A DNA stretch of 64,000 bases from Xylaria sp. FL1777 (Eukaryota; Ascomycota; Sordariomycetes; Xylariales; Xylariaceae), in the NCBI GenBank assembly GCA_022578965.1, contig MU400521.1:372001-436000 (forward strand), given 5' to 3'. The notes beneath the pieces were generated by a model. It did no database searches and had not been told where the DNA came from. It was given only the letters and a program-made list of their open reading frames with translations. Shown here piece after piece: positions 30,073 to 34,835 of the stretch. A program made the position numbers and the translations under genes. The first letter of the stretch is position 1. Every line of letters begins with the position of its first letter.

Positions 30073-31306
30073 TCAGGAACTGTTAATCCATCTATTGCCA
30101 GACGCTACACGTCCGTGTCTTCTGCCGCCTGTATCCATCTGCCTGTCAATTTCGGGGCGATCTGATAGTGCCTTTAGAGATGCGTAGGCTTGTATCGCCC
30201 CCTCAATACTCTGTGTCAGGCCGAACAATACCGTCAAAATCAGCACCAGAACCGCGACCCAGAACGTATACCATTGGACTCCATTCCGTCGGTCATGCCA
30301 CCATTGCCTCAGTGTTTGTGGCTGGGCCTCATCGTATACTTGCTTCAACATGACTAGTCTATCCCGCCATATCTCGAACCTCTCAATCTGCCTCAGATCG
30401 GTCTTGAGTCGACCGCATCGGGATATCCCTGTATCTACCGCCAATGGTAGTTTCGAGATCCATTTTCGAGTCTCGCAGTCTGATGAAGGAAACAGTAAGG
30501 CTAGAGTTTGAAGGGTTTCCGCGGCTAAACTTGCTGGAAGCAAGCTTCGTGAGCTGTCCTAATTAGCATTCAAACTATGGGGAAGCAAATCGAAATACTA
30601 GATCTCACCTCCAGCGCTGAGATTCTAAAAATGATGCATGGTGAAAAATATGCACCTTGGTATCGTCATCCGTCAACCTCAAATGGTCAACGAGGTTGTC
30701 AGTCCAGATGATCTCCAGGCCAGCGATTCGACCAAAATTTCTCGCCTTGAATGTTTTTTCCAGTTTGATATTCTCATGCGAGAGTATAGGCTGATCACCG
30801 AAATAGTTGGCGAGGAATTCCCTCAGAGAATCATCCTTCCATTGTATCTCAGTGCTCCCAGAAAAGCCGTGCGAGGATATACCACAGTCGCACATAACTA
30901 CCAGGCTCGCAGCCAAGTCGATGGTATTTTCCAATAACTCGTCTTCGTTGGTATGCTTCGTCTTCAGCTTGGATCGCAGTCTCTGTTTTATATCCCGTCT
31001 AGTGGCACCCGCTTTCAGCAGATAGACTACATCAATGACATCGCGATGTGTCCTAACAGCCACATGACGTCCGCCATCATGTAAGGAAAGAGCGATTGTC
31101 TTGGAATAGTAGTTCCAAAAGATTGCGAGATTGATGTCTGCGCCAAGTAGCCGGGGAGAATATCCAGCACCCCAAAGCTCATGGCAAATCTCGGCCTGCG
31201 TCTGTGATTCAATTGGTGTCTCCAAGAGACTCATATCAATAGTTGAAATCATCTGAGTAGGTGTAAAATGGATGAATCTGCGGGAAAAGAATATCGGAAT
31301 TCTCAA
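30073..31306 (-). CDS. Fungal protein with C-terminal transmembrane anchor, unknown function
   Basis: Two exons, 31306-30609 and 30553-30073, give 392 residues. I recognise no enzyme motif. The N-terminal half has a repeated-looking fungal block: ELWGAGYSPRLLGADINLA, WNYYSKTIALSLHDGGRH and VDVVYLLKAG-type charged helices. The C-terminal part reads RQIERFEIWRDRLVMLKQVY, then WWHDRRNGVQWYTFWV leading into one transmembrane helix (VAVLVLILTVLFGLTQSI) and a short tail. This tail pattern recurs in fungal proteins of unknown function that sit near STAND/NLR-type or HET loci; that is from memory and weak. It is transcribed divergently from the protease-PNG1 fusion with only about 165 nt between starts, suggesting co-regulation. 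Confidence 0.75.
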
Positions 31307-31471
31307 TCAGCTTTCCTTGGCGCATGTATATACCAATAACAAGTGCAAAACTATCTAAGCCTCAGACACGTAAGCTGCTAATCCTGTGAGGGGCTCAACC
31401 GATCTCCTGCGACCCCCAACCTCCGATCAGGGCAACCAGTATTACGCGTTCGGCCTACTGATGCAACCGAA
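31307..31471. promoter_or_regulatory. Short bidirectional promoter
   Basis: Only about 165 nt separate the two divergent start codons, so both core promoters must overlap here. No named site recognised. Confidence 0.55.
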
Positions 31472-34400
31472 TTGCGTATTCTCAGCTTATTGGAATACAG
31501 AGCTAGGCTGACTGAGCTCTCTTATAGCATTAACAAAGCACAAACTCCTCTTCCAATTAGTTCCCATGCCTTTTCTCAATTCGATCCTAACTTCAAAAAC
31601 TTGTCAGCATCGCTAGCCAGCGTTTCTATCTTAGAAATGTCTACAACCCAATATCATCTGCCCGCTCGACTGGCTTCACGGGAGACGGGGCTCTCTGCCA
31701 TTCTTCGGAGAAAAACTGCCGCACAAAAGATATGGCCCAACCCCGAGCGTTCAGTAGGGCGCTTTATCTGCAAGGTTGGAAAGGAATCGATTTGGGAAGC
31801 CCAGGGTGAAGCACGGGAAACATTTAAAACGATCGCGCCAGACATTAAATGCTATTTGGATAGTTGTGTTGAGCCCATCCCGAGCTGGGTTACGGTAAGA
31901 AAATTTCGGAGTCGTCCTTCTCCTTATTCGGCTACTCTAAAAAGAATAAGAGCTCCCTTTTAAGCTACAATTTCGCCTTAGGAGTCTTTTAAATCTTTGA
32001 AAGGTTTTTTTAGGTCACGAGCAAATTGGCAATAACTAACTCCATGTGCTATAGTGGTCAATGTATATGATGGGTACTACTTTGGGTAGTGCATGCCCGA
32101 CGATCGTTTTCTGCTGCGATGTTGCTGCACATCGTCGTGAGGTTCGAAATACTATTAAGCACAGTGGAATATTAGATAGGTATCCTGGGGTGAAGACAGG
32201 ACATATGCCAAGAGCGCCAGATTTCGACCGTCTCATACCGTTAGCTGCAGGCAATTGCGGTAACAAGAGTACGATTCAATTACAAATGTCGCAGAGCGCG
32301 CTGGGAATGCCGCTGCTCATCACGGGCTACGCTCATGGCCAGGAACTAACAACCAAAGCAACCGTTGGCGGAGTGATTCGCGTAGGCGGCAAGTATTTCT
32401 ATACGACGGCAGCTCATCCATTCCAGACACATCTCGATGTGACGAACTCTCTAAAACAACAAGTCATTGAAAATCAAAATAACGAGAATATCGACGATGA
32501 CTCATGCAGTTTTGATGGGGACTTCGATTCAGCCTTTGAAGTCGAGAACGAGCTTTCACCTCTCAATAATGTAACGATAGGGGAAGGAAGGGCTCACGTC
32601 CACGAAGATCCGTTCTCATTGATGACGAAGGAGCAAGAGGCTTTGGAGCAGTCAACTGGAAATGAGAATAGCCACCATACTATATTAAGGTCAACAGAAC
32701 CTAATCTAGATCACAAAAGCTGTCTTATTTCTAACGCCTCTTTGAGGGTACTGCAATTTGACTACCCTGGAGAATTATTTCTTTTACCACGCAACAGTCC
32801 AGACACCGAGGCAGACTTTGCTCTTCTAGAAGTCACCGATAGCCGCCATTGGACTCAAAATGTGGTCTCGATAATACCAAACGGGAAATCCAAGGTTATT
32901 ATTACATCACTATCAGATACGGACAGCAACGATACACCCATCACTCACATTCAAGCTATCACATCACGTGGAAATATCCATGGGAGACTATCCGACACAC
33001 CTTTCTATGCACGCGCCCCCAATGACAAGGCCTTTCAGAAAATGCTTTGTGCAACCTTTAGCAGTAAATTAGAGAAAGGGGATTGCGGCGCGTGGGTTAT
33101 CAATACGGACACGGGTGGCTTGTACGGTCATATTGTTGCCGGTTCTCCAGACTCGGGGACTGCTCTGATCGAATTATTCCAAGACGTTTTCGAAAATATT
33201 CGATATCGCACAGGGTACCTTCCAACTCTCCCTACTGAGAACCCCAAAGGGAACTTACAGGAGGGCCACTCGATAACTGCTGGACTCAGGGCTGGTAGCA
33301 TCTCTCAGAGGGACCCAAGCATGGGTCAAGAGAAACATAACCCAGAATCTCTGTCGAAACACACAAAAGGCCGCATAATAGAAGGATATACCAGCTCTAG
33401 ATTTTCGTTTTCAAGCAAGTCTAGCAGTTCGCATCATATCTCCCGTGTCCACAACACGTCTGAGGAAATAATGTTCAAGGGCAAAGCAATCCAGACAAGT
33501 GAATCTACTGCAGAAGAACAGATAGAGTCTCTGACTTACAGATTTCAACTCAATACACGAAAGGGGGAAAAATCTAAGAAACTCGTCTACCCGGCGCTAT
33601 TACACTCTAATAATAACGCCAATTTTAGAACGGCCGCCATGGATTCAAGGCTCGACAAGGATTATGATAAACCGCCATCCTACGCATCATTGCAATCACA
33701 ACGGTCACTACGCTCAGCTAAGGAATCTCAAAAGTTCTGCAATCTTCTTAACTCATTATCTCGGACGCCTCTCGGGTGGGAGAACTCGGGGCTACTTGAC
33801 GAAGCTCTGCGAAGAATTCCACTAAGTCGCATCTACGACGATGCCGAAAACGAATTTAATACGTTTCGCGCTATTGCCATGTCTATAGAATCACCGCGCC
33901 CAGATTGGGGATATGAGGATTGCGTGGTGCGTGCATTGATGCGATGGTTTAGGAGAGATTACTTCACATGGGTCAACAACCCAGTCTGCGATGCCTGTCT
34001 ACACCCTACCGTGAGCAAAGGCGTGACCGGTCCGACACAGGAGGAGAATATCTTCGGCGCTCTTCGCGTCGAGCTGTACCAGTGCACTCAAAAACGTTGT
34101 GCTCGGCTCACCCGGTTCCCTCGATACACAGACCCATGGGTATTGATGGAGACCTGCCGGGGCCGGGTCGGGGAGTGGGTACACGTTTTCAGCCTATTCT
34201 GTTGCGCAATTGGGGCTCGGACGCGATGGGTTTGGAACGCTGAAGATCACCTTTGGGTGGAGGTCTACTCGAAGCACGTAGAACGGTGGGTGCATGCTGA
34301 TGTGCTCGAAGGCGCTTGGGACAACCCTGTCTTATACAGCGAGCGTTGGGGAAAGGCTTTATCCTACTGTATCGCTTTTTCGACCGAAGGAGCCGTCGAT

Positions 34401-34835
34401 GTGACCAGGCGTTACGTTCGTCAGGAAAAACTGCTTAAGCCACGGGACAGATGTTCCGAACTAACCCTCTTCTATATGCTCAAGAAGATCACTGCGGAAA
34501 GACGTGATAAACTGAGCAAGGAGACTCAGGAACGCCTTCGGCTAGGAGATGCCGCGGAACAGGAAGAGCTTCAGACGTTCCGGGTCCTATCTACGGTAAG
34601 GGAACTAATTGTATCTTTGGCTCCGCCGTCCGAACCTGGCTCTAGCCAGCAGCGCCCGAAAAATCGGGAATCAAGGAACCTTCCGCCGAAACTTGCTTTG
34701 GAAGAGAAATGGCTTGAAGACACGCGCAAGGTAAGGCCCCAGATATATACTATCATCTTGCTATATGCATTTACTAATGTTACAAAGTTGATGAATGATT
34801 ATTGTGAATGGGACAGCGTATCGCCTCATCGTTAG
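31472..34835 (+). CDS. Fusion of chymotrypsin-fold-like (His-Asp-Cys) domain and PNG1-like transglutaminase domain
   Basis: Exons 31472-31894, 32055-34730 and 34788-34835 join in frame to 1048 residues; the last intron has a good donor and CTAAT branch but has no stop, so it may be retained. Residues 1-200 form a conserved-looking fungal module ending WVTWSMYMMGTTLG, CDVAAHRREVRNTIKHSGIL and GVKTGHMPRAPDF. Next is a trypsin-like fold: GGVIRVGGKYFYTTAAH (His262), ADFALLEV (Asp395), GDCGAWV (Cys485 in place of Ser) and GLYGHIVAGSPDSG. A roughly 180-residue Ser-rich linker follows. Residues 700-1048 match peptide:N-glycanase PNG1: LLDEALRRIPLSRIY, WGYEDCVVRALMRWF, zinc ligands CDAC and CTQKRC, then GRVGEW where the catalytic Cys should be (Val846), NAEDHLW (His873) and RWVHAD (Asp890). 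N. crassa PNG1 is likewise acatalytic. Role unknown. Confidence 0.85.

Follow-up and report, generated by a model that had tools for sequence, protein, structure and literature searches.

Plant NLRs with integrated decoys are immune receptors in which a copied host protein serves as bait. A similar layout is proposed here for a fungal locus, with a protease as the presumed receptor in place of an NLR and a putative bait role. The protein copied at this locus belongs to the PNG1/NGLY1 family, which has a transglutaminase-like fold, four zinc-binding cysteines and a Cys-His-Asp triad. PNG1 of N. crassa has lost catalytic residues, and the available parts of the reports on it (PMC3346758, PMC2866665, PMC9102325) describe no protease fusion. 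Of the gasdermin genes of fungi, over 80% reportedly cluster with genes whose protease products act as their sensors, and in HET-Q1/HET-Q2 and the CHAT/gasdermin clusters the gene for a multidomain protease sensor adjoins that for a membrane-acting protein (PMC12881547 and PMC10197012, in their accessible sections). On the protease side, the comparison includes the alpha-lytic/streptogrisin-type bacterial serine proteases and the plant NAL1 proteins, of which maize NAL1 is termed a serine protease (PMC12915138, in excerpt).

The locus lies in a stretch of 64,000 nucleotides of Xylaria sp. FL1777 (Xylariales), here called the window, from a genome of 58.7 Mb. It has a gene for a chymotrypsin-fold protease fused to a PNG1 domain without its nucleophile and, head-to-head with it, a gene for a protein with a transmembrane helix. 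Because the protease/gasdermin clusters share this logic of a protease sensor gene adjoining a membrane-protein gene, a two-gene sensor/partner unit is favoured. In contrast to those clusters, the protease is neither S8 nor CHAT, the partner family has a C-terminal transmembrane helix and no gasdermin match in the sequences scanned, and the sensor tails resemble host proteins instead of WD40, ANK or TPR repeats.

The sensor-protease gene and its domains

The sensor-protease gene is a single gene of 993 aa on the forward strand, from an ATG at 31637 to a stop at 34835, and its spliced translation is exactly identical to P0001, a hypothetical protein of the same Xylaria strain. The 924-aa frame 32061-34835 contains the main exon and spans both the protease and the PNG1 domains. 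The features, in window coordinates, are:

31637..34835, + strand: sensor-protease gene, exons 31637-31894, 32055-34730 and 34788-34835
31895..32054, + strand: intron 1, GT..AG, with an ACTAAC branch-like site (spliced model and sequence)
34731..34787, + strand: intron 2 (spliced model)
31727..32246, + strand: N-terminal alpha/beta subdomain, residues about 31-150, split by intron 1
32274..33236, + strand: chymotrypsin-fold (PA clan) protease domain, residues about 160-480
32415-32417, + strand: His207, protease triad
32814-32816, + strand: Asp340, protease triad
33084-33086, + strand: Cys430, protease triad, nucleophile position
33243..33713, + strand: low-confidence linker, residues 483-639, pLDDT under 50
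33714..34631, + strand: pseudo-PNG1 domain, residues about 640-945
34167-34169, + strand: Val791, nucleophile position, aligned with the Cys191 position

A sequence-only reading of this DNA had seen a protease-fold module and a PNG1 domain without catalytic Cys in one gene, and this core observation is confirmed, as is its first intron, which the model identical to P0001 keeps. The start it had given, 31472, is an upstream TTG, replaced here by the ATG of the P0001 match, and at the other end it had missed intron 2 and the last exon. Its protease residue numbers, minus 55, become His207, Asp340 and Cys430, the codons of which were read back. It is scarcely credible that two separate genes were joined here through misassembly or misannotation: both domains lie in one frame, the deposited model is identical, and 57 other proteins share the order. 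The same exact model, and the same join in those proteins, oppose two separate transcripts, and the two-gene artefact was rejected.

The predicted structure of the protease domain has the double beta-barrel fold of PA-clan peptidases, as the sequence-only reading had expected, and its triad follows the His-Asp-Ser/Cys order of the clan. The solved structure that aligns over the N-terminal subdomain and the protease together is plant NAL1 (rice NAL1-type trypsin-like protease; 12% identity, rmsd 5.6), from which the window protein differs in its Cys nucleophile and extra C-terminal domain. Unlike the alpha-lytic/streptogrisin-type enzymes, it is multidomain, has a Cys nucleophile and carries an acidic insert of 132 residues between His207 and Asp340. 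Among 84 modules, the triad His is found in 81 (three gaps) and the Asp in 83 (one gap), with a nucleophile that is Cys in 77 and Ser in 6 (one gap); for the 58 PNG1-fused modules the numbers are His 56 (two gaps), Asp 58, and Cys 53 or Ser 4 (one gap). Exchange of Cys and Ser at one site fits a working nucleophile, and the conserved residues suggest that the module may be proteolytic. One PNG1 fusion, P0039, has an HSF-type DNA-binding domain at residues 259-340 (E 2.8e-12) within the His-Asp insert, together with a Ser nucleophile and C2H2 fingers in the linker, which could be a prediction error.

The pseudo-PNG1 domain has the transglutaminase-like PNGase fold in the predicted structure, again as anticipated, and with a threshold of E 1, Pfam detects Transglut_core and Rad4 alone in the 924-aa frame. 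As in PNG1/NGLY1, the His and Asp of the triad (His818, Asp835) and both zinc-binding pairs (Cys731/734/763/768) are present, whereas the nucleophilic Cys is replaced by Val791, in agreement with the sequence-only reading, and from this residue deglycosylating activity is expected to be absent. The replacement extends to the other fusions: across 43 aligned sequences the position is Val in 34, Ala in 4, Asn in 2, Gly in 1 and a gap in 2, so that Cys is lost in all 41 readable ones. A partial fusion outside this set, P0037, keeps it. The zinc pairs are kept in 41-42 readable sequences of the 43, and the four zinc cysteines, together with the positions of yeast Arg210, Glu222, Trp231 and Asp235, are invariant where readable. 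At the position of His818, however, 7 of 42 fusions have Tyr or Arg, and variation is also seen at Trp220 (2 of 42) and Glu238 (3 of 42); the PNG1 cleft is therefore not wholly kept.

A separate stand-alone PNG1, which the sequence-only reading had proposed to look for, is present at C38 (L001/P0056) with RCGEW, His and Asp, and appears intact. The PNG1 part of the window protein is like N. crassa PNG1 in its lost catalytic residues, and unlike that fungus, Xylaria also has an apparently intact copy. Such a pair in one genome bears on why fungi keep inactive PNG1, and makes it possible to test PNG1 as a recognition scaffold apart from catalysis. In the four species having both forms, the fusion core is always the more diverged, with 65-84% identity to Xylaria sp. 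FL1777 over 170 aa, against 91-96% for the stand-alone core. One branch of the PNG1 tree separates fusions from stand-alones (SH-aLRT 97); since the yeast and mouse branches are very long, a nesting of the stand-alone clade within the fusions is neither supported nor opposed by rooting. Among the stand-alone PNG1s examined, 77 of 99 keep the Cys, whereas most filamentous fungi are generally said to have lost it.

Distribution and history of the fusion

The fusion is already in databases, labelled 'hypothetical' or 'PNG1', and the 58 proteins that have it do not support an architecture peculiar to this genome. Among the titles and abstract openings listed by literature search, none describes a PNG1-protease fusion. 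PNG1 is carried by 58 of the 84 module-bearing sequences examined, the window's own gene included, a share that gives no estimate of frequency because the searches were seeded with PNG1 fusions. The module stands without PNG1 in the other 26, and the domains found in its place include patatin (P0195, E 7.3e-18) and DUF7896 (P0049, P0202).

Many of the fusion matches have no source name, and the genera listed here are those that could be named. They include Xylaria, Ustulina, Neoarthrinium, Monosporascus, Apiospora, Coniochaeta, Fusarium, Dactylonectria, Neonectria, Lasiosphaeria, Chaetomium, Cytospora, Cordyceps and Lindgomyces; the last is a Dothideomycete, and the others are taken to be Sordariomycetes. 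The fusion likely arose once for the main module clade, judging from the tree, where a group of 58 rows has support 98; all but P0047 and P0048, in which no PNG1 match is found, are fused. P0184 (Lindgomyces) and P0191 lie outside this clade, and the module tree therefore needs five changes, at least three of them forced by starred branches.

This distribution bears on the idea that the fusion is a polarity scaffold, doing what N. crassa PNG1 does without catalysis, with a regulatory or inert protease part. Catalytically dead yeast Png1 rescues the hyphal-extension defect of N. crassa (PMC2866665, in the part available); the protease triad, however, is conserved in nearly every readable module, and the module occurs without PNG1 in the 26 sequences above. 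This idea is rated highly improbable.

The divergent membrane partner and the sensor tails

The partner gene starts on the reverse strand, back-to-back with the sensor gene:

30073..31252, - strand: divergent partner gene, 374 aa, open gene model; exon 1 31252-30609, intron 30608-30554, exon 2 to the stop at 30073
30214..30270, - strand: C-terminal transmembrane helix of the partner (YTFWVAVLVLILTVLFGLT), Kyte-Doolittle 19-residue mean 2.26
31253..31636, no strand: shared intergenic region of 384 bp, putative divergent promoter

The partner model is a putative one, its intron being the shortest of three that keep the frame open. Pfam scans of its two exons, of the C147 partner and of one exon of that at C135 give no family above cut-off and no gasdermin match. 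A PDB profile search with the partner alignment gave no convincing relative; its single match, a designed helical repeat (E 4.4e-4), was judged uninformative.

A genome search with the first exon of the partner returned, besides its own locus, three others at E 1e-5 or better, and all four adjoin a protease-module locus. Approached from the other side, the partner stands head-to-head in five of five cases, at the window locus and at the four others (C72, C54, C58, C102) that module similarity alone brought up; this search scores the best candidates only and may therefore miss module genes without partner. For a single partner locus to fall no more than 1 kb from any of these five module starts, the rough chance is 8.5e-5. 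In total, ten partner loci linked by phmmer were followed in this genome, the one in which pairing was examined; an eleventh, weak match (C7, E 0.005) was kept outside the set. Eight of the ten have a head-to-head module gene and two (C135, C17) stand beside NB-ARC genes. A transmembrane helix is found in nine of the ten; the C135 partner has two hydrophobic stretches and that of C58 none.

The tails of five of the eight sensors (window PNG1, C72, C12, C92, C54) were compared with the genome, C147 and C58 being left out, and no tail was found on the C102 sensor. Four of the five resemble another gene of the genome, as an integrated decoy resembles its host protein. The window PNG1 tail has 52.6% identity over 331 aa to the stand-alone PNG1 at C38. 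At C72, a copy of 36 residues stands soon after the protease module, and 28 of them (77.8%) are identical to the C-terminal region of ATG13, encoded on C3 (PF10033, E 5.7e-35; match E 1.2e-8 with the whole C72 protein as query). The C12 tail (L022 980-2053) is an RRM that shares 44% identity, across 128 aa, with a separate RRM gene on C123, which resembles Whi3, and the C92 tail is 30% identical, across 152 aa, to a C38 gene that has no name. The C54 tail has no convincing genome match (E 0.0187). By analogy with the plant receptors, these copies of host regulators suggest bait; many proteins have paralogues, and ordinary paralogy could give such matches, so that tail similarity alone is no proof of it.

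Here it is proposed that the sensor would be an intracellular chymotrypsin-fold Cys protease with a captured copy of host PNG1, lacking the catalytic Cys, as its tail, and that the partner would be a tail-anchored membrane protein. The PNG1 copy may serve as recognition domain or bait for cytosolic N-glycoproteins or for a foreign factor that attacks PNG1 or ERAD. Binding to this copy would activate the protease, which would then cleave the membrane partner and so trigger a response, probably damage or cell death. Taken as a whole, this chain is given an even chance, with higher confidence in the fold and the pairing and lower in the bait role and the immune outcome. The earlier suggestion of a sensor or immune protein gains support from the paired membrane-protein gene.

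The main rival is a proteostasis enzyme, that is, a glycoprotein quality-control protease in which the dead PNG1 recruits misfolded N-glycoproteins, or Rad23 and the proteasome, the protease degrades them, and the partner is an ER or membrane anchor. It draws on the PNG1 fold and the several residues around the catalytic site that stay invariant despite the nucleophile loss, on yeast Png1, which binds Rad23 and passes substrates to the proteasome (PMC2791212, as far as available), and on NAL1, which aligns over both N-terminal subdomain and protease and degrades regulators (PMC12915138, in excerpt). ERAD alone, however, does not explain sister sensors that combine unrelated tails (ATG13 motif, RRM and others) with the same partner family, and the stand-alone PNG1 can already serve ERAD; the proteostasis enzyme is considered unlikely.

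The sensor/partner unit may, tentatively, be one of a family of two-gene surveillance systems in filamentous fungi, protease counterparts of the integrated-decoy plant NLRs. As baits they would display the cell's homeostasis proteins, namely PNG1 from ERAD, ATG13 from autophagy and an RRM regulator, in inactive or incomplete copies, and the tail-anchored partner would be cleaved by the sensor protease on contact with the bait. Should the proposal hold, the pair would bring another protease class into the fungal clusters of sensor proteases with membrane proteins, make a membrane-protein family without Pfam entry a candidate executioner, and place bait-type recognition outside plant NLRs.

Sister loci and their neighbourhood

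The sensors at C54 and C58 match the module profile at 99.8% over 351 columns, and the C72 sensor (L013 1548-4292) has a Ser nucleophile. The modules at C147, C12 and C92 are strongly diverged: the plain profile finds C12 at E 1.9e-5 and C147 at E 2.2e-4, and does not find C92 at E 1, the assignment of which rests on similarity to C12 and C147 and on a GISGSW motif. Taken together, the three reach a probability of 96.7% against the module profile (E 3.8e-10; 50 columns around the nucleophile), and none of ten column-shuffled controls exceeds 0.5%. They were found by looking beside the partner, and so are not independent of it.

A selfish or allorecognition pair, either a poison/antidote or a heterokaryon-incompatibility unit with variable tails marking self, would account for an uneven distribution, and the matches listed include stand-alone PNG1 of Hypoxylon, Daldinia and Nemania and no named fusion from these genera. 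It would also fit the HET or NB-ARC genes near three partner loci and the C102 pair, both genes of which look reduced; since the window's own partner shows an intron, the stops in the C102 partner may be introns, and what is firm is a sensor reduced to a fragment. Tails that resemble conserved proteins speak against such a pair, which is rated improbable.

The window holds 22 ORFs of at least 170 aa, of which 21 were scanned with Pfam. The genes identified are those of chorismate synthase, a lipoate ligase-like protein, VPS11, ribonucleotide reductase, TatD, CENP-N, a carbon-nitrogen hydrolase, MFS, P450, S28 peptidase and Fungal_trans proteins; no fewer than six ORFs have no Pfam family. No immune cluster is seen among the Pfam-identified neighbours of the pair, and as these are ordinary genes, an accessory or secondary-metabolite island was rejected. 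NLR membership was likewise rejected, the 924-aa frame having no NB-ARC or NACHT NTPase domain by Pfam. The link that the sequence-only reading had drawn to the N-termini of fungal NLRs was not confirmed on the literature side either: the lists in PMC4986451 and PMC9815663, in the parts available, include S8 and CHAT peptidases and have no chymotrypsin-like peptidase among the domains listed. A bacterial defence library gave sub-significant matches only (2TM_IV for the C147 partner, E 0.0068; RT-Protease for the C72 sensor, E 0.0054).

Some individual features of these loci can be added. The C58 sensor (L016 4174-5612) has Leu at the nucleophile position (GDLGSW) and is possibly a pseudoprotease. 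The C147 pair has a HET-domain gene nearby (L021 6927-8375; PF06985, E 1.7e-30), about 1.6 kb past the end of its partner. The partner members at C135 and C17 (L024 150-2121, L025 196-2104) adjoin NB-ARC/DUF7779 NLR-like genes on the same strand, the NB-ARC match at C17 (E 2.1e-4) being below the Pfam cut-off. Kinase-like ORFs occur near the C54 pair (L014 7501-8406) and near the weak relative of that pair on C17 (L031 3-602), which suggests a duplicated segment.
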